DNA of 64,000 nucleotides from Pseudomonas sp. SST3 (lineage in GTDB: Bacteria > Pseudomonadota > Gammaproteobacteria > Pseudomonadales > Pseudomonadaceae): NCBI RefSeq assembly GCF_003325755.1, contig NZ_QORI02000001.1:372001-436000 (forward strand), written 5' to 3'. Under the pieces are notes generated by a model. It was not told the DNA's origin. It saw only the letters and a program-made list of their open reading frames with translations, and did no database searches. The position numbers and the translations under genes were made by a program. Positions within the stretch are counted from its first letter, which is position 1; the number at the start of each line of letters is the position of its first letter. Positions 32,984-41,526 of the stretch are shown here, piece after piece.

Positions 32984-33315
32984 GGCAGTCTCCTTCGAGC
33001 CGGCGCGCGGCGCCGGGAAATGGACAAGGCCGTCTGGCCGGTAGATAGCGGACGAGCCGCACTGTGCATCCCTCGACATCCGTAGAACAGGAAGCGACCA
33101 CCGGGTTCCAGGCGTGGAGCGATGCGTTTGAAATCTCAAACACATGCTAGGGCCGGCTACCGATTCCAGGCAACACCATGTTCAAAAAAACTAACGCTTC
33201 ATAGGCTTGCCTGATAAGCGTAGGCCGCGGCGGCGCTCGAATGCGCTTTGCGCACCCCAGCCGCCGAAGCGCCATGGACGATCGCCGGCGAGATGCGTAT
33301 GATTGCGCCCGCGCC
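32984..33315. promoter_or_regulatory. gabD promoter region with near-palindromic site
   Basis: 332 bp between gabD and tRNA-Arg. At 33126-33141 a 16-bp imperfect dyad, GTTTGAAATCTCAAAC (7 of 8 pairs), lies about 145 bp upstream of the start and could be an operator for a gabD regulator. The tRNA promoter should lie at the right-hand end. Nothing else is seen. Confidence 0.4.
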
Positions 33316-33392
33316 GCACCAGTAGCTCAGCTGGATAGAGTACTGCCCTCCGAAGGCAGGGGTCGTGGGTTCGAATCCCGCCTGGTGCGCCA
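33316..33392 (+). tRNA. tRNA-Arg (anticodon CCG)
   Basis: 77 nt including encoded CCA. The acceptor stem GCACCAG pairs with CTGGTGC. The D-arm AGCTCAGCTGGATAGAG, the anticodon loop CTCCGAA (anticodon CCG) and the T-loop GGTTCGAATCC are all canonical. Single-copy tRNA-Arg genes are common island integration sites, and an accessory region starts right after it. Confidence 0.97.
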
Positions 33393-33462
33393 TATAAATC
33401 AGCACGTTACGCCTAATTATCTGTTTTCAACCAGGACGGTGACAGCAGGGCGACAACACTTG

Positions 33463-33509
33463 CTAAGCAAAGCCCCCCCTTGAGTAATTAAGGGGGGCCT
33501 TTTGCTTAG
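33463..33509 (+). terminator. Long hairpin downstream of tRNA-Arg
   Basis: CTAAGCAAA...CCCCCCTT faces AAGGGGGG...TTTTGCTTAG, a stem of about 19 bp with minor mismatches and an 8-base loop (GAGTAATT). The T-rich right arm makes it a plausible tRNA terminator and a boundary of the restriction island. Confidence 0.65.
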
Positions 33510-33562
33510 AGTAGCCTCGGGAACGCGCACAATTGAGAACAGGGAACCTGTCCGTCAGCTAA

Positions 33563-33586
33563 AAGATGTGTTATATAAGACATCTT
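33563..33586. promoter_or_regulatory. 24-bp near-perfect dyad over the promoter of the HTH-methyltransferase
   Basis: Arms AAGATGT and ACATCTT with the central TTATATAA also symmetric: 11 of 12 base pairs match. It ends one base before the ATG at 33587. The central TATATA (33572-33577) is a -10-like hexamer positioned so that transcription would begin at or next to the ATG, predicting a leaderless mRNA. A protein bound here would block its own promoter. The HTH at the N-terminus of the gene product is the obvious candidate. Confidence 0.7.
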
Positions 33587-35107
33587 ATGAAATCATCCGC
33601 CATTCAAAAATTGCGCCTTCTACTGGGCGAAACCCAAGCCCAATTCGGAGCACGATTCCAAGTGAGCCAGATCACGGTTAGTTATTGGGAAACCGGTCGC
33701 TCTATGCCTGCGGGACGGCGGCTGAACGAGGTTACCGCTTTGGCGTCAACCGCCCTACCCGCCAAGCCAAAATCGACGCCCTTTCGCCCCATTCAGTACC
33801 TTGGAAGCAAGCAGCGCCTAGCCGAAACGATCGTTAATGTTCTCGAAGAGATATCTCCGAAACAAACACGGGTTGGGGATTTGTTCGCGGGAAGTGGGGT
33901 AGTAAGTGCATTAGCAGGAGCCGAGCGGCCCGTAACAGCAGTCGATATACAAACCTACTCGAAGATTCTTTCCACGGCCGCCCTGCTTGAACAGGCAGAA
34001 AAATTCGCGCATATGACTGGCGCCGAATTCAAAGAACGATTTGCTAGCGCATCCGACCTCCTTGAAGAAGCCTTGACCCCTCTACTTGCCTTTGAGCGCG
34101 AAGCTGAGGCCGAGGCTATCAAAGGCAATCCAGAGTTGCTGGTCCAAATTATTGAGTTTGGGTCAATCGCTGTATACGAGCAGCGCCCGTTAACAGGCAT
34201 GCCCGCCACCCTTGGAAAGCTCATAAAAAATGCGATAAGTGCACTAGCCAACATTCGCGCCTCATCAGCTGAGATTACTGCTACACGTTATTTTGGCGGG
34301 CCCTATTTTTCTTATAGGCAAGCAATTGCCTTAGACGCAATCTACATCGCGACACACTCGGATTCCGGCGGCTCGCAGAACATTGCCGCATTAGCAGCCA
34401 TCATCAGTACAGCCAGCGTGATAGTCAATACAGTAGGGAAGCAGTTCGCCCAGCCGATGAAACTGAAGAAAGCGGACGGCCGAATCCCACCACTCCTGCT
34501 CCAAAGGGCCTTACGGGACCGCAGTATTGATACCTTGGAAGTGTTTCAAGAGTGGGCAACTCGTTGGCAAACACATGCTCTGAGCGGCAATTTCGATCAT
34601 GATATCGTGCAGGGTGATGTAGTCGACTTTGTCGTTAACGATCAATCCTGCGGAGCCTTTTACGCCGATCCGCCCTACACAATTGATCATTACTCGAGGT
34701 TCTACCACGTACTGGAAACCCTCTCTCGTCGAGACTCACCTCGTTTAGACGAGATGAAAAAAAAGGGAGAGGTTTCAGTAATGCGCGGCATTTATCGTCA
34801 TGGCCGCTATCAATCCCCGTTTTGCGTTCCCTCAAAAGCGCAAGCGGTGTTCGAGCAGCTGTTCGCTGCAGCTGGACAAAAAGCTGTGCCACTAGTGATG
34901 TCATATTCACCATTTGATGAAGAAGAGAGCCATCGCCCACGGCTCCTTACATTGGATGCGCTCATCTCGACGGCGGAGCGTCATTTTCGGCAGGTGTCGG
35001 TTCAAGAGATAGACGAACACAGCCACAGGAAACTGAACGCAAAAGCAGCCAACATGAGCGTCCGCAGTGATGCGGAGCGACTTATTGTTTGCGAAGTGAC
35101 CAACTAA
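33587..35107 (+). CDS. D12-class adenine-N6 DNA methyltransferase with N-terminal HTH (M1)
   Basis: 506 aa from ATG 33587. An earlier ATG at 33566 lies inside the dyad and is not preferred. Residues 5-45 form an XRE-like helix-turn-helix (LRLLLGETQAQFGARF, then SQITVSYWETGRSMPAG). The methylase follows: motif X at IQYLGSK (69-75), SAM motif I DLFAGSG (98-104), a long target-recognition region, and catalytic motif IV DPPY at 361-364 (AFYADPPYTIDHYSRFYH). Motif order is that of Dam/FokI-like D12 enzymes. It is 1 bp overlapped (TAATG) with a second D12 methylase. AT-rich codon use differs from its neighbours. It probably modifies one strand of an asymmetric site and represses its own promoter. 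Confidence 0.9.
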   Translation: MKSSAIQKLRLLLGETQAQFGARFQVSQITVSYWETGRSMPAGRRLNEVTALASTALPAKPKSTPFRPIQYLGSKQRLAETIVNVLEEISPKQTRVGDLFAGSGVVSALAGAERPVTAVDIQTYSKILSTAALLEQAEKFAHMTGAEFKERFASASDLLEEALTPLLAFEREAEAEAIKGNPELLVQIIEFGSIAVYEQRPLTGMPATLGKLIKNAISALANIRASSAEITATRYFGGPYFSYRQAIALDAIYIATHSDSGGSQNIAALAAIISTASVIVNTVGKQFAQPMKLKKADGRIPPLLLQRALRDRSIDTLEVFQEWATRWQTHALSGNFDHDIVQGDVVDFVVNDQSCGAFYADPPYTIDHYSRFYHVLETLSRRDSPRLDEMKKKGEVSVMRGIYRHGRYQSPFCVPSKAQAVFEQLFAAAGQKAVPLVMSYSPFDEEESHRPRLLTLDALISTAERHFRQVSVQEIDEHSHRKLNAKAANMSVRSDAERLIVCEVTN

Positions 35108-36492
35108 TGGAAAAATACCTCGGCAACAAATCTTCTCTACTACCGCTAATTGATCGATTCTTTGAGGACCGGATTCCCGGCGCGACGCAACTTTCGGATG
35201 TGTTCGCAGGGACAAATAACGTTTCTCGATACTTCCGCTCACGGGGATGGGCAACGGCAGCCTGTGACGCGAATCGCTTCAGCTATGTGCTCGCGCAAGC
35301 ATATCTCTGCACCAACGCCATACCCATGTTTCAAAGCGTTCGCACCGCCAACAAAGATGCCTTCCGGCTGACTAGATTACAGAGTGAATTAAGTCGTTCG
35401 ATTGCGAAGTTCGGTTCGCTATACCTTCCAAATCATTCTGCAGACCAGGTTTTCCAGGATCTAAAACACCTAGCAAATGTGCTGGCAAACCTGCAGAACA
35501 TAGGGGAGAACAACACCAAACCCGGTGTAATCAGCGAATGCTTCACGCAATGGGGTTCACGGGCCGCGTATGCCAGTCGCCGCGGAAGCGAAGGCTTCAG
35601 AAACTACTTTTCTAAGGAAAACGCGCTCTTTCTCGATGGGGTGCTATCCACACTTCGCGCATGGTGGCGGGAAGCACGCCTCACCCGGAATGAACTATTT
35701 CTACTCCTCACCAGTGTGATCGAAGAGGTCACCATCACCGCTAACGTCAATGGTACGTTCCATGACTTCAATCGTGATCGCTTGTGGCCCAATGCCAACC
35801 AGGCATTCCTGCTGCGGCTGCCGCTAGTATCTTGCTCAAGCCCAGTAGCAGAAGTGGCAAATGCCAACGCTGTTGACGCCGCCTCTGCCTTTGCCAAGCA
35901 CGATATTTGCTATCTCGATCCCCCCTACAATTTCCGCCAATACAGCGCCTACTACCACCTCCTGAACTTCATCGCTGCGTATCCGTTCCTGGAGGACATC
36001 GAGTTATATGTCGCTGGCCTAACGCATGTCCGGGGCCAACACCCAGAGGACGACTTCACCAGCGATTTCTGCTTCAAGACTCGTTTTATCGATAGTCTCC
36101 GAAAACTAATCGAATCTACCGACGCAGCGCACGTCGTATTGAGTTATTACGGCGGACGAAATCATTGGAACCACTGGGCATCGGTCGAGGAACCGACCGA
36201 CCAAGGGCTTCGTGAGCTCAAAACCCTGTTTGAGGACACAGGCCTATTCTCACGATGCGAGGTCGTTCCAGCGCTTGAGGTTAGGAAGAACTACCAAAGC
36301 CGAGTGGGCGAGCAAAAAGAACTAGTTAACGAATACCTATTCCACGGCGTACGACGCGCACAATCAGGCTCTCAGCTAAGGCCTCCCGCACCATTAGCCG
36401 CCAATGTCCGATGGGGGCTGATCGATGAATTCTGTCACACGGCCCCGCTGAGACAGGATGAAATCGATCAGGTCGCACGTACTGCTGGATGA
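35107..36492 (+). CDS. D12-class adenine-N6 DNA methyltransferase (M2)
   Basis: 461 aa from ATG 35107, coupled to M1 by TAATG. Motif X YLGNK at 4-8, motif I DVFAGT at 31-36, catalytic DPPY at 271-274 (CYLDPPYNFRQYSAYYH). It lacks the HTH of M1 and is not a simple duplicate, since similarity is confined to motifs. A second methylase is expected when the recognition site is asymmetric. Its last 99 bp overlap, tail to tail, the nuclease gene on the other strand. Confidence 0.88.
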   Translation: MEKYLGNKSSLLPLIDRFFEDRIPGATQLSDVFAGTNNVSRYFRSRGWATAACDANRFSYVLAQAYLCTNAIPMFQSVRTANKDAFRLTRLQSELSRSIAKFGSLYLPNHSADQVFQDLKHLANVLANLQNIGENNTKPGVISECFTQWGSRAAYASRRGSEGFRNYFSKENALFLDGVLSTLRAWWREARLTRNELFLLLTSVIEEVTITANVNGTFHDFNRDRLWPNANQAFLLRLPLVSCSSPVAEVANANAVDAASAFAKHDICYLDPPYNFRQYSAYYHLLNFIAAYPFLEDIELYVAGLTHVRGQHPEDDFTSDFCFKTRFIDSLRKLIESTDAAHVVLSYYGGRNHWNHWASVEEPTDQGLRELKTLFEDTGLFSRCEVVPALEVRKNYQSRVGEQKELVNEYLFHGVRRAQSGSQLRPPAPLAANVRWGLIDEFCHTAPLRQDEIDQVARTAG

Positions 36493-37731
36493 GATTGTCG
36501 GGTAACTAGAAAAAAGATGAGTCGGCTCAACCCCCCAAGCTTCAATCTTAGGAAATTGGCGATGGGCCCCTTCAATAGTCGAATAACCAAGGAACGTGGG
36601 CTGATCTGCGCCGGGGAAAGGCACGAGAAAAACAGATAGCACGCTTGCCTCTGGAGTCCGTAGGGAATCTATATAGTAGAGCTGCTTTACGATATCCGGC
36701 CCACCAGGACGAGCAATTGGGAACCTGTAGTAATACTTTGCGTCGACGATGAGACGCCAGGCACCTCGAACTACGACCATATCTGGAATCTGTTTGTGGT
36801 CGTATCGGGCCTTTTGCCCGGCAGGACTGCTACACCACCATACAGGTTGACCAATCGAAGAAATCGGATCGACTTGACTGTCGGCGCCGATGGCCATACG
36901 ACAAGCATCTTCCCAGACCGAATAGAATGAGGTCGTACCGTAGATTTGTGGGTTTGACACCGCGCCGGCTAGCCTTGAACTTAGGAGCTCTCTGAGCAAT
37001 TTTAGAAGCCGGAGAGCATCGGTTCGATAAACACCTCGCTGCTCAAGAGCCAAGAGGCGATCCAAGTACGCTCGCCGATCTTCCGGAATTGGCCACTGCG
37101 GCACAAGAAGTCCAGCCGCCTCCTCGGCGTGCTCGACAACAGCGGGTGTGACCAATTCGTAGCGCTCTTGCAAGCGGCGAAGTATCCCCACCTGAAGCGC
37201 ACTTATTTCGTTGAGTACACCCTCCCTCCGCTCGGCTATTACAGATGGATAGATTGCGGCCCCCTGAATAAGAACCGGAAAGCACTTGGCGATTGTCCTG
37301 GCCCAATGTGGGCGCCCTTGATCACTAACCCGAACCTGTTCCCTTCGATACAAACCGTGAGAATAGAACCACTCCTGGAGACTTAAAAGTGCGTCGTATT
37401 CCCTCAGAACCTCACTATTCCCATATTCAGGATCCAGCTGCTTGTCGACCGTTGGCCGTCGAAATGCGCTGCGCTCAAAATAATTTCGAAGGATGCGAAT
37501 AGTCCCGGACAAATCGAAACCATTACCACCACCAAATTTTGGACATGCGAATAACAGAAAATTTGGGAAAACAACGATACCCACAAAAGCCAGAACCAGC
37601 CGACCTCCATCGGTTGGTCGCAAGATTCGCGCGCTTATCAAGTAATCAAGACAGGAGTTTTCCGACTCCAGCTTGGCAGACCACTCGCTCCACGTTAGCG
37701 AATCACCCTCAACGAGATTAATAACACTCAT
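36394..37731 (-). CDS. McrC / LlaJI-R2-like restriction nuclease subunit
   Basis: 445 aa from ATG 37731. An in-frame ATG at 37794 would add 21 residues, and neither has a clear SD. The C-terminal half carries a PD-(D/E)XK nuclease core: D317 in KQIPDMVVV, then D330-A-K332 in RLIVDAKYYYRF. The N-terminal half contains LFACPKFGGGNGFDLSGTIRILRNYFERS, shared in style with LlaJI-type R2 proteins (from memory). It follows the McrB-like motor on the same strand. The pair would translocate and cut DNA lacking M1/M2 marks. It overlaps M2 by 99 bp at the 3' ends. Confidence 0.82.
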   Translation of the reverse strand: MSVINLVEGDSLTWSEWSAKLESENSCLDYLISARILRPTDGGRLVLAFVGIVVFPNFLLFACPKFGGGNGFDLSGTIRILRNYFERSAFRRPTVDKQLDPEYGNSEVLREYDALLSLQEWFYSHGLYRREQVRVSDQGRPHWARTIAKCFPVLIQGAAIYPSVIAERREGVLNEISALQVGILRRLQERYELVTPAVVEHAEEAAGLLVPQWPIPEDRRAYLDRLLALEQRGVYRTDALRLLKLLRELLSSRLAGAVSNPQIYGTTSFYSVWEDACRMAIGADSQVDPISSIGQPVWWCSSPAGQKARYDHKQIPDMVVVRGAWRLIVDAKYYYRFPIARPGGPDIVKQLYYIDSLRTPEASVLSVFLVPFPGADQPTFLGYSTIEGAHRQFPKIEAWGVEPTHLFSSYPTISSSSTCDLIDFILSQRGRVTEFIDQPPSDIGG

Positions 37732-37732
37732 T

Positions 37733-37819
37733 TCAAATCTGACTTTCAGCTTCTTCGGCGGCGCTAGTAGATGCACCCGCATCAGATAAATCATTCGTTT
37801 GATTTATGATCTCAGGCAT
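37733..37819 (-). CDS. Possible 28-aa leader/coupling ORF between R1 and R2
   Basis: A small frame with ATG at 37819, 8 bases after the R1 stop, and TGA at 37733-37735, one base before the R2 ATG. Product begins MPEIINQTNDLSDAG, acidic. The tight fit on both sides suggests translational coupling of R1 to R2 rather than a functional peptide. No SD. It could be chance. Confidence 0.25.
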   Translation of the reverse strand: MPEIINQTNDLSDAGASTSAAEEAESQI

Positions 37820-37827
37820 TTTTAACT

Positions 37828-39558
37828 TTAGCGGCGCACCAACGCCACCAGCCCAGATCGCTGGGACTGCGAGAAGCTTTTTGCTAGGAAGAGAGACTCT
37901 TGTCGGAATCTAAGGACATCGTCCCACAGGTATAAAAACAACTTTTCGAGTACAGCATCTGGACTCGCAAGTTGTTTTTCCGTCAGAAAATAAGGGCCGA
38001 TTAACTTATCTTCATGAATTCCCAAGCCGATGAGAAACTCGTTGATAGCGGCACGGAAGACATCCCAGTCGTAGTCGCGACCACCATAACGAACCACCGA
38101 AATGTTCGCTGGGTACAAGCAAGGCTCGGTGTACCCCTTGTAGACATAGCTCCAGCGGCGGCGAAACGCCGTATCCAACGGAAAAACTCCTTGGTCAGCA
38201 CTGTTCATAGTCGCCCACAAATAGAGATTCGCTGGCAGCCTTATTGTGGCTATTTCAAGTTGATACGATGCGAAGAACGCTCGTTGTTCGGGGGTTGCTT
38301 CGATCTCGTAACGACTAGCACCCGACTCATCTCGATCTAACAACTGCAGCACATCACCCAGAATAGCAGCGGCGTTTCCTCGATTGATCTCTTCGATCAG
38401 CACCACGACAGTCTCATTCGGGCAGCGAAGCGCGCGCAATAAACCCCGCATCAGAGGACCGGGCACATATCGATAGTCAATAAATGGCTTGCCTCGACTT
38501 CCCGGCGCTCCGTCAGCTTCCTGTAGAGCGTTCAACTCGTCAATTTGTTCATATACAGGCTGAGGCTTGAAGGCGCCGACAAAATCGAAAAAAGACGACT
38601 CAGGATGAAACTGCGTCCTGATCACATGATCTGCAGCTTGCGTCAAGCGATCCAAGTAATAGCTTTTTCCCGACCCAGGACAGCCGGTTACGATAAGTTG
38701 ATGAGGGTGCTGAAGCGAGGCGAGGCTAGGCGACTTTGGAATCAGAGTTGAGGAATTCTCTCCTCCTGAGCGCAGCGTCAGTTGGCGGTCTAATCGAGGT
38801 AGCGTCTGCCGTAAAACCAGCCTTAGGCGTTTGTATGCATTCAGAAACCCTCTGATTCTATTTCTGACGTCTATCTGGATCTGACTAGCAGCATCCTTGT
38901 ATTTCGAAGCGGCGACCTCGATGGGCGCTACTGGCTGCTGCTTATCGGTAACCTGCACTTTAGCGAATGCACCTTCGAACTCCTGTCGCTCTTCGGCATT
39001 TAGCCTAAAATAGCGTCCGATTTCCCAGCCGTTCGAATTAATCTGGAACAAAAGTAGAAGTTTACTGCTATCTGAAAGCACCTTGTCGATTTCGCCTTCC
39101 GGCACGTAGTCGAAAAAAGTCTGTGCGCCATACCAAGCCTCCTTAAAAGGATCGCTCACAGGGAAACCACCAGCGAGCCGGCTAGCTAATTCACTAACTA
39201 CTTCATATTCGGCTTCATCACCACCAGTACCCTGCCAAAAAGCTGGAGCATCTGCAGGCGTCAGCTGATGCTTAAGATAGGCGTCTGCGAGGGAAGTGAT
39301 CGCTGGATTTTCTGCCGAGCCGTCAACCAGTCCTTGGTTGTGCAGCGAGTTGAAGTATCGACTCCTCGTGACGGCGTTATCAGAGAGGACACCGTTGTCA
39401 CGAATACCACGCAGGCTATTGACGATCTGTTGCGTGCTTTTAAGCTCAGAGCTGTAAAGAGAGAGTGGCTGTAATTTCGGGGTATTCTTGCGCGTCAAAG
39501 ATAGTTTGAAATCCAACACCTTCGTCAGAGCAAGCTGTTCTACATCTGTAAGCGGCAT
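37828..39558 (-). CDS. McrB-like AAA+ GTPase restriction subunit (R1)
   Basis: 576 aa with AAGGAG SD before ATG 39558. The N-terminal part (about 1-280) is a variable region that, in McrB relatives, contacts DNA. The AAA+ module has Walker A GCPGSGKS at 292-299, Walker B VVVLIEEINRGN at about 383-394, and the McrB-type sensor MNSADQGVFPLDTAFRRRW starting at 451. McrB uses MNTAD here, part of its GTP specificity, so GTP rather than ATP is likely. It drives the nuclease at 36394-37731. Confidence 0.88.
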   Translation of the reverse strand: MPLTDVEQLALTKVLDFKLSLTRKNTPKLQPLSLYSSELKSTQQIVNSLRGIRDNGVLSDNAVTRSRYFNSLHNQGLVDGSAENPAITSLADAYLKHQLTPADAPAFWQGTGGDEAEYEVVSELASRLAGGFPVSDPFKEAWYGAQTFFDYVPEGEIDKVLSDSSKLLLLFQINSNGWEIGRYFRLNAEERQEFEGAFAKVQVTDKQQPVAPIEVAASKYKDAASQIQIDVRNRIRGFLNAYKRLRLVLRQTLPRLDRQLTLRSGGENSSTLIPKSPSLASLQHPHQLIVTGCPGSGKSYYLDRLTQAADHVIRTQFHPESSFFDFVGAFKPQPVYEQIDELNALQEADGAPGSRGKPFIDYRYVPGPLMRGLLRALRCPNETVVVLIEEINRGNAAAILGDVLQLLDRDESGASRYEIEATPEQRAFFASYQLEIATIRLPANLYLWATMNSADQGVFPLDTAFRRRWSYVYKGYTEPCLYPANISVVRYGGRDYDWDVFRAAINEFLIGLGIHEDKLIGPYFLTEKQLASPDAVLEKLFLYLWDDVLRFRQESLFLAKSFSQSQRSGLVALVRR

Positions 39559-39697
39559 CCCCCCAAACTCCTTGGTTAGTCCTTCCTGTGATCGATATTA
39601 ACGCGCTTATGCCCGCAACGACCCTATCGCGGCACCTTGCACGACCCAACGAACATTGGCAATAGACATAGCACCGCCCCAGGAATGAACCGATCGG
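39559..39697. promoter_or_regulatory. Upstream region of the R1 gene, up to the IS fragment
   Basis: 139 bp that must include the minus-strand promoter of R1-R2. A TTAATAT stretch around 39597-39603 (reverse strand) is the best -10 candidate. The M1-type dyad (AAGATGT...ACATCTT) is not repeated here, so the methylase HTH may not control R1 directly. Confidence 0.4.
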
Positions 39698-39858
39698 TGG
39701 ACTTGCCCCGACCAAACCGGACACTAACTCCCCGTTAAATTGATGCTGCTGCCAAGGGCCTAAATTCCCTCGGCGAGCGGTATTTCAAGGCGCTGTGCGG
39801 ATGCTGCTCGTTGTAATGCTCAAAGGCGATCGTCAGGTTGCGCAAGGCTGTCTCTCGG
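39698..39858. mobile_element. IS3-family insertion-sequence fragment
   Basis: The left boundary TGGACTTGCCCC (39698-39709), continuing to CCGGACA, looks like an IS3-group terminal repeat starting with TG. Inside it is the 3' end of the transposase gene (minus strand). The other end of the element is missing; sequence changes to chromosomal coding sequence near 39858. It marks the right edge of the restriction island. Confidence 0.7.
39735..39858 (-). pseudogene. IS3-family transposase OrfB, C-terminal remnant
   Basis: Reverse-strand translation gives [19 protein letters not shown], then [12 protein letters not shown], ending at TAA (39735-39737). The [17 protein letters not shown] tail is the signature C-terminus of IS3-family rve integrase-type transposases. 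Only about 40 residues survive; the catalytic DDE domain is gone. Confidence 0.82.
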
Positions 39859-39897
39859 TTTGATTAACTCGTCAGACGACTAGGCAGCCTGGGCTCC

Positions 39898-41526
39898 ATG
39901 GTCATCCTGGCGTTCGATACCTATGAGGTTTTCCGGCTTCTCGATGCCTGGCTGCGGCAGGTGTTCGTACCGATGTTGTCGGGCAATGTACGGGGGCTTT
40001 TCTTCGGTCGGGAAAGCTCACTCGACAGCTGGTACGCCTCGCCAGGATGGGGGCAACTGCTGTGCTCTGTCCCGCTGACGCCATTGAATGCGCCCGATAC
40101 CAACGAGCTCCTGCTGAGTCTTGGCGTCACGGGCGAGAAGGCAGCTCTCATCGCTCGAGCCACCCATGGCCACCCATTGGCGCTGAAGCTCGCCGCCGCC
40201 GGTCTTCGTGAGGCGCAGCCCGGTTATCTCCCTACGGATGCGTCGGTTCAGCATGCGCTGGATGAGCTGACGCGCCTGTTTCTCGAGGATGTCAGCGATC
40301 CGGTCACCCGGCGTGTACTGGAGGGCGCCTCCGTCACCCGACGGACCACGGTTTCGTTATTGCGAAGCATGTTTCCGGAGCTCGCGCCTCAGGATGCTTA
40401 CGAGCGCCTGCGCAAGCTGCCGTTTGCCGGCTGCGTCAGTGATGGGCTGGTCATCCACGACGCCGTTCGAGATGCCATCGCCAGTTCGCTGCATGCCAGC
40501 GACCCCAGCCGTCACCTCGCGTATCGGCAGGCCGCCTGGCGACAACTGGTCACCGAGGCTGAATCTGCAAGCAGTGGAGATCTCTGGCGCTATACCGCCG
40601 ACATGCTTTACCTGATCGAGAATCCGGTCGTGCGCGAAGCGTTTTTTCCGCGGCATGCCACCTCGCTCAGCGTGGAAGCGGCGCAACCAGTCGATAACGG
40701 TGCATTAACAGCGATTATTCGTGCCCACGAGGGCGGCCTGGCCGCCCAGACGCTACTGCAATGGTGGCGCCGCCTGCCGCAAAGCTTTTCGATCGTGCGC
40801 AACGGGGGCGGCGGGATAACCGGGTTGTACTGCAGACTGCGCTCGGATCTGGTCGAACCTGCCTGGCTCCGGGACGATCCCGTAACCGCCCAATGGCACA
40901 GCCATCTGACCAACAGCCCGATGAACAAGGGTGACATTGCGCTTTTCTGTCGACGCTGGCTGAGCCTCGATGAGGCTGATTCGCCGGGCGAAGTACAAGC
41001 GGCGGTGTGGCTTGACCTCAAGCGCGCCTACATGGAGCTGCGACCACGGCTGCGGCGGGTTTATCTCACCGTGCGCGACCTTGCAGCTTATGCCTCGGTT
41101 GCCCAGCGGCTGGGTTTCGAGGTGCTGACAGACCGTGAGGTGGAGCTTGATGGTCATCGATACCACAGCGCGGTGCTCGACTTCGGCCCCAGCTCGGTCG
41201 ACGGCTGGCTGTCGGAACTCGCTGCCGCAGAGCTTGGTATGCAACGCACTTGCGACCTTCTCGATGTCGAGGCACGGGAATTGGCGCTCGACGAACGCCG
41301 CGTTGCGCTGACACCGCTGGAGTTCGGCGTCATGCATCACCTCGTGACGCGCGAGGGTAAGGTGGTGTCGCGCAGTGAGCTGCTGCACGATGTCTGGGAC
41401 ACCCAATACGAAGGCGGCAGCAACGTCGTGGATGCCGTGGTGCATACCTTGCGCCGCAAGCTTGGCACGCAGTCTGGCCGAATCGAGACGGTATCCGGGG
41501 TGGGCTACCGATTGAAATCTCGCTGA
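39898..41526 (+). pseudogene. 5'-truncated STAND-type ATPase with C-terminal winged-helix domain
   Basis: 542 codons are open from ATG 39898, but the protein begins in the middle of an ATPase: MVILAFDTYEVFRLLDAWL is a Walker B-like strand, and no Walker A precedes it. The frame upstream is stopped at 39865-39867, next to the IS fragment. The middle part is helical. Residues about 440-542 are a clear OmpR/PhoB-type winged helix (LTPLEFGVMHHLVTREGKVV, TLRRKLG, VSGVGYRLKSR). The IS insertion with flanking deletion removed the P-loop. It may still be expressed as a DNA-binding fragment, but I regard it as broken. Confidence 0.72.

Follow-up and report, generated by a model that had tools for sequence, protein, structure and literature searches.

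A putative Type II restriction-modification locus of the LlaI/BsuMI/LlaJI group with a convergent pair of D12 adenine methylases

A kind of McrBC-related Type II system having two Type IIS methylases was named in 2008 (PMC2614495). In LlaJI, R1 was found to bind site-bearing DNA, and phage resistance required both subunits; in vitro, neither nuclease nor GTPase activity was recovered, including any GTPase activity of R1 (PMC1459862). The McrB signature reads MNxxDRS (PMC7680126), and the reading domains reported in McrB relatives comprise DUF3578/SRA, YTH or EVE, and B3 (PMC7680126, PMC12707154).

In this study, a locus of four open reading frames at 33587-39558 was analyzed within a 64-kb window, which denotes the whole stretch of DNA presented above. 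The genes M1 and M2 on the plus strand converge with R2 and R1 on the minus strand (Table 1). The best reading of these genes is a Type II restriction-modification locus of the LlaI/BsuMI/LlaJI group, in which an m6A pair would replace the two C5 enzymes of LlaJI. Three features of the LlaJI group, namely a PF09563 nuclease with PD-(D/E)XK, an McrB-like AAA+ partner and a linked methylase pair, are present, and the linked pair was found in the window and six further loci. In the narrow sense the locus is neither LlaJI, which has two C5 methylases whereas M1 and M2 both belong to PF02086, nor LlaI, as R1 (576 aa) includes an N-terminal domain and the HTH is fused to M1.

Table 1. Features of the locus and its borders, in positions of the 64-kb window.
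Feature	Positions	Strand	Details
tRNA-Arg (CCG)	33316..33392	+	left neighbour of the low-G+C block
Palindrome AGATGT-N10-ACATCT	33564..33585	+	one base before the M1 start; -10-like TATAAG inside
M1, D12 class m6A methylase, 506 aa	33587..35107	+	PF02086 6.6e-14; DPPY at 361
M2, D12 class m6A methylase, 461 aa	35107..36492	+	PF02086 1.1e-18; DPPY at 271
Convergent M2/R2 3' ends, 99-nt overlap	36394..36492	both
R2, LlaJI-family nuclease (McrC-like), 466 aa	36394..37794	-	PF09563 RE_LlaJI 2.7e-22
R2 catalytic motif PD (337-338) ... DAK (351-353)	36736..36786	-	35-row alignment
R1, McrB-like AAA+ motor with N-terminal recognition domain, 576 aa	37828..39558	-	AAA_5 2.9e-08
R1 MNSAD, in the place of the McrB signature MNxxDRS	38194..38208	-	residue 451
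R1 Walker A GCPGSGKS (292-299)	38662..38685	-
R1 N-terminal domain, residues 1-281, predicted helical	38716..39558	-	among fetched loci only with the D12 pair
Putative insertion-sequence transposase remnant	39735..39860	-	right edge of the low-G+C block (approximate)

Gene content, setting and relatives

The initial annotation had placed two D12 methylases opposite an McrB-like AAA+ motor and a PD-(D/E)XK nuclease. Its coordinates are exact and the Pfam matches agree with it, including PF02086 in both methylases and PF09563 in R2 above the cut-off, which bears out the kinship to LlaI and LlaJI; the DPPY motifs lie where it had put them, and the MNSAD sequence is present. The overlaps of M1 with M2 and of M2 with R2, the palindrome and the frame departure at the R1 3' end are additions to it. 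R1 also has a match to the McrB model of NCBIfam (7.6e-10), which falls well short of the cut-off of that model. The interpretation given in the initial annotation was upheld in part. The layout occurs in five loci besides the window, one of them annotated with a 'LlaJI family restriction endonuclease' and two 'DNA adenine methylase' genes, and the general kind was already named; no paper on the convergent D12-pair form was found among the matches listed from the literature searched.

The island character that had been noted earlier is supported by base composition, with a G+C content of 51-53% in the gene block versus 63% and 60.5% in the flanks, and by the adjoining tRNA gene. The frame at the right edge is presumably an IS3-like transposase remnant. 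A tRNA-targeted integrative element was considered and rejected: no integrase was seen by eye among ORFs of at least 80 aa, and the tRNA end is unrepeated among the repeats reported for 33250-40300.

One genome scan provided a total of 27 loci, four of which encode both methylases. Three of these are convergent as in the window (L001, Herbaspirillum aquaticum; L002, a Burkholderiales MAG; L003, Cupriavidus sp. WGlv3), and the fourth is collinear (L005, Fundicoccus ignavus). Convergent sets were also found on the conjugative plasmid pTE_T100_3 in an E. coli strain (L028), adjoining a recombinase gene, and on a viral contig (L038) together with a serine-recombinase-like gene. In the large protein set, where about 8000 candidates were scored for each protein, relatives at E≤0.001 numbered 2088 for M1 and 55 for R2, including relatives at 91% and 92%, respectively. 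Since the four-gene order recurs and such close relatives exist, a chance association of the genes was ruled out. Searches of phage records gave two weak places for M1 and eight places for M2, none of them covering 80% of M2. The gene set is rare among the sampled genomes. A PF09563 search of 369 genomes of the class found it only in the genome on which the search was centred (1/369), and its control detected Bacillus subtilis alone among 14 known genomes; M2 at E≤1e-40 was likewise confined to the centre genome among those of the order (1/399), the family (1/398) and the genus (1/60). We regard the locus as a real, mobile and rare variant of McrBC-related Type II restriction.

One methylase had been claimed to carry its own HTH, and indeed M1 possesses an N-terminal HTH at residues 6-46 (Pfam HTH_3, 5.1e-05, just above the cut-off). 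Pfam detects it in the window, in L028 and in the relatives corresponding to L002 and L003; in L001 it was seen by alignment only, and M1 of L038 and L005 is devoid of it. A small HTH-like frame precedes M1 in L005, by eye like the one before the LlaI-type methylase in L030. Each methylase contains a single DPPY, and the M1 stop overlaps the M2 ATG by one base. Because the M2 profile was built from loci that the same profile had found, single-sequence scores were relied on for M2, with 270 bits for L005 and 76 for L031. At the other end, M2 and R2 run into each other in every one of the six convergent loci, their 3' overlap measuring 99 nt in the window and 126, 44, 108, 24 and 4 nt in L001, L002, L003, L028 and L038, respectively.

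R2 residues D338, D351, A352 and K353 are invariant in all 35 aligned rows. The conserved start of R2 is probably the ATG at 37731 and not 37794, as many relatives begin there. The predicted fold of R1 is similar to that of McrB, and the predicted fold of R2 to that of McrC, with the fold matches listed for R2 covering mainly residues 99-457. A PDB search by sequence matched the motor, with other matches weak (E 0.039-0.73). R1 also carries EEINRGN, and its signature in the window reads MNSADQG, a partial match to that of McrB.

The R1 N-terminal domain and its methylase partners

The N-terminal domain of R1 is mainly helical in the AlphaFold2 model, which is confident for residues 1-250 (block means 84-97) at a whole-model pTM of 0.50. 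Residues 42-87 are predicted as helix-helix-strand-strand and look like a winged helix, judged by eye without a fold match. The fold matches listed for R1 span residues 276-576 (the motor) only, so that the N-terminal fold is unnamed but not thereby new, and the N-terminal pieces from five loci gave nothing over the cut-off in Pfam. Two proposed likenesses were rejected with hhalign, which gave a probability of 0.1% to the separate gene of LlaI and aligned only the motor (columns 294-590) to LlaJI R1 rather than its N-terminus. A total of 37 N-terminal relatives, including that of the window, were found in the large protein set; for 24 of the 36 others the assembly apparently matches that of an M1 or R2 relative, as counted by eye.

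A profile of R1 residues 1-281 (35 rows) matches six of the 32 R1-bearing loci, exactly the six with both M1 and M2, whereas the motor profile matches all 32. The 26 loci without the domain include three that are cut short (L012, L019 and L020) and several near copies. One of the loci lacking the domain, L030, contains a broken LlaI-type D12 methylase. L005 shows the domain with a modest score (35 bits, E 6.7e-10 in a small set) and a motor score of 214 bits, versus 311 bits for the motors of L013, L018 and L027, which have a C5 methylase in the locus and no such domain.

Phylogenetic analyses of motor and R2 placed L005 apart from the other D12 loci. In the motor trees it groups with L007, L009 and L021, with support of 100/96 and, in the pruned tree, 98/95; the R2 fork joining the same four has 92/87. 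L007 and L021 encode two C5 methylases each, and none was found in L009. Tests on the motor (p-AU 3.4e-09) and on R2 (p-AU 2.7e-06) both rejected topologies holding the seven D12 rows together. From these discordant trees, the domain and methylases seem to differ in history from the motor and nuclease, as would be expected of a domain reading the same site that is protected by M1 and M2. Within the sampled loci, the recognition domain and M1/M2 appear to form a module, to which two or more lineages of motor and nuclease have been joined. The exchange would seem to be one event among few sampled loci, resting on one tree outlier, L005.

The D12 group in the topology tests is defined by methylase content, not from the trees. 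The motor trees omit L012 (partial), L014 and L022 (no R1 match), as well as L024, L027 and L034-L036, which were taken as near copies or close kin from lengths and scores only; the pruned tree also omits the long branches L004, L020, L029 and L030. The R2 tree leaves out the same rows as the motor trees together with L029 and L030, and is to be read with its long branches and the unlike letter make-up of nine rows, including L005. L032, L033 and L037 duplicate L001 and L003.

Control, restriction state and alternative readings

The palindrome before M1 occurs once in the 64-kb window and in none of 100 shuffles. L001, L002 and L003 have a single copy each, situated 0-3 nt before M1, and the palindrome is absent from 34 of the 37 loci. 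A -10-like TATAAT/G lies at the same position of the palindrome in the window, L001 and L003, less clearly in L002, as seen by eye; a scan for consensus sigma-70 promoters did not list the site. L028 instead has two direct ACATCT repeats 21 nt apart before M1, and the half-site is absent within 250 nt of M1 in L038 and L005. No such palindrome was found in the R1 upstream regions of five compared loci, and the operator pattern followed by a start codon had no match in viral contigs. Single copies of AGATGT lie close to the start of R1 in L028 and within the first codons of R1 in the window. The palindrome is likely the operator and promoter of M1, probably bound by the HTH of M1 as a fused controller. 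With the -10-like element inside the palindrome, transcription would start at or next to the start codon, and the M1 message would be leaderless.

The half-site AGATGT/ACATCT might itself be the methylation target, so that M1 transcription would be gated by methylation, as reported for LlaJI. It is identical in the window, L001, L002 and L003 though the HTH helices differ, it recurs as direct repeats in L028, and it is similar to known sites of two-strand m6A modification, GATGC/GCATC (PMC9799307) and GATG/CATC (PMC12898733); PMC11779793 mentions, second-hand, that LlaJI is controlled through its own sites. However, half-sites precede M1 in the five loci with the HTH and are absent in L038 and L005, where the HTH is missing. 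A plain HTH operator explains this better, since the half-sites track the presence of the HTH, and we regard a methylation target as unlikely. Also quite improbable is a combined reading, in which the R1 N-terminus is a new helical class of site reader travelling with the D12 pair as a portable cassette and the operator half-site is the target of that cassette, its methylation both marking self and setting the methylase supply.

The 3' end of R1 raises a question about restriction in the window. After about residue 564, R1 departs from the family sequence and stops early, and the conserved W..G.GAPL tail is present in another frame just downstream. R1 has 576 aa versus 591-638 aa in 34 full-length relatives (two further relatives are fragments), and its stop no longer meets the R2 start, unlike in L001, L002, L005 and L028, where the two overlap by four bases. 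Intact R1 copies exist in other loci. The off-frame end could be a real lesion or a sequencing error, and restriction here may be impaired because of it. The system might accordingly be a modification-only remnant, in which M1 and M2 methylate and the 3'-damaged R1 allows no cutting; R1 being shorter than every full-length relative, its displaced tail and its separation from R2 all argue for this. But the motor motifs and R2 are intact, the other three genes are without visible damage, and the lost stretch falls after the motor core. Moreover, a single departure in an assembled contig may reflect a sequencing error, and R1 and R2 of L038 are likewise without overlap. We consider such a remnant possible, though not the favored reading.

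In the preferred reading, a short asymmetric site would receive m6A on one strand from M1 and on the other from M2. By analogy to the site-specific binding of LlaJI R1, the N-terminal domain of R1 would read the unmethylated site. R1 would then assemble into an NTP-driven ring, probably using GTP, which drives R2, and motif and fold suggest that R2 cuts. M1 and M2 would be co-expressed from the promoter overlapped by the palindrome, where the HTH of M1 probably binds, and the methylases would thereby limit their own supply; R1 and R2 would be expressed from a separate, facing promoter. The likeness of R1 and R2 to McrB and McrC in fold could also suggest a Type IV, modification-dependent nuclease, with the methylases as unrelated neighbours or regulators. 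This is very improbable: all six loci bearing the R1 domain also have the methylase pair, in both layouts, and R2 belongs to the LlaJI family, whose type member restricts unmethylated DNA (PMC1459862). We regard as probable, as a whole, a mobile Type II system in which the D12 pair marks, R1/R2 cuts, M1 limits itself, the specificity module has been exchanged and R1 is off-frame in this copy. Gene content, catalytic motifs, the fold kinship of motor and nuclease, the association of domain and methylases, the discordant trees and the palindrome are its well-supported parts.

Significance and comparison with known systems

New in this study are the confinement of the R1 N-terminal domain to the six D12-pair loci, the apparent exchange of domain and methylases as a module, the palindrome shared by the window and three relatives, and the M2/R2 3' overlap throughout the convergent loci. 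Several unrelated reading domains have been described in McrBC-type motors. In the present locus another one, without a Pfam family, is tied to an adenine methylase pair. As it seems joined to two motor lineages, swapping the domain together with the methylases is predicted to change the site, and such modules would help to account for the gain of new targets by motor-driven restriction. Safe entry into a new host could be explained, in a testable way, by the conserved operator and the 3' overlap. The link between the unnamed recognition domain and the methylase pair is the part most worth the attention of specialists.

LlaI of Lactococcus shares with the locus a D12 adenine methylase, a small HTH-like upstream frame (by eye), an McrB-like motor and a LlaJI-family nuclease, but its motor is short (337 aa) and preceded by a separate gene, its controller is separate as well, and its genes are collinear. 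M.LlaI is reportedly one fused D12 protein. The LlaI copy in L030 has broken methylase frames and is 96.8% to a phage 'LlaI methylase'. The best structural matches of motor and nuclease are to an integrative model of YdiS/YdjA, which we take to be BsuMI. The BsuMI methylases are C5 enzymes. BsuMI differs further in its short motor (343 aa) and its three-gene restriction cassette (PMC1459862). In the SfaNI-like and MhoVII Type IIS systems, too, an asymmetric site is modified by two m6A methylase activities, one for each strand (PMC9799307, PMC12898733), but these have a single endonuclease, of the AlwI family in the SfaNI-like systems, and the word McrB is absent from both papers.

McrBC of E. 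coli has the same motor-nuclease pair and fold. It is not known to have cognate methylases. It differs from the present locus in being modification-dependent (PMC12707154). LlaJI of the Lactococcus plasmid pNP40 has two methylases, an McrB-like R1 with its own N-terminal half and a PF09563 R2 (PMC1459862), as in the window, but its methylases are C5 enzymes, its four genes are collinear and the similarity between the two R1 proteins is confined to the motor. LlaJI.R1 of Helicobacter pylori possesses a B3 domain (PMC7680126, PMC12707154); the N-terminus of R1 in the window is predicted to be mostly helical.

Right-hand side of the gene block

The final conserved stretch of R1, the McrB-like motor gene, lies in a different frame from the remainder of the gene, and the start-stop overlap between R1 and R2 (the LlaJI-family nuclease gene) that is present in Herbaspirillum aquaticum (L001), a Burkholderiales MAG (L002), Fundicoccus ignavus (L005) and the E. 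coli plasmid pTE_T100_3 (L028) is absent from the window. At the right edge, a regulator gene comes after a transposase-like remnant. The regulator carries an OmpR-type DNA-binding domain (PF00486) at its C-terminus and, judged by eye, appears truncated at its N-terminus.

Coordinates of the features discussed
Locus	Position	Feature
Window	37730-37870	R1 3' end, R1/R2 junction
Window	39735-41526	transposase-like remnant, regulator gene
L028	210-1022	predicted sul2 resistance gene
L030	2700-4386	LlaI-type operon
L039	6630-10410	M1-like methylase and neighbors
L004	9193-10533	C5 methylase, LlaJI-type pair

Plasmid-borne copies and M1 relatives

The conjugative plasmid pTE_T100_3 carries both the predicted sul2 gene and the restriction-modification cassette. 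The LlaI-type operon of L030 is also plasmid-borne, in Lactococcus; there the annotation breaks the adenine methylase into fragments but shows the genes for the motor and the nuclease as whole. In L039, an M1-like D12 methylase adjoins a beta-class methylase (PF01555) as well as a sequence that weakly matches a PLD-type nuclease (E 0.004, under the cut-off). This gene company suggests that M1 relatives may work in other systems.

Other LlaJI-type loci

Upstream of the LlaJI-type motor-nuclease pair, L015, L017 and L023 encode one C5 methylase and one NPPF-motif protein, perhaps another methylase mix. In L004, a C5 methylase converges on the LlaJI-type pair with a 26-nt overlap, and thus the convergent plan is not limited to the D12 form.
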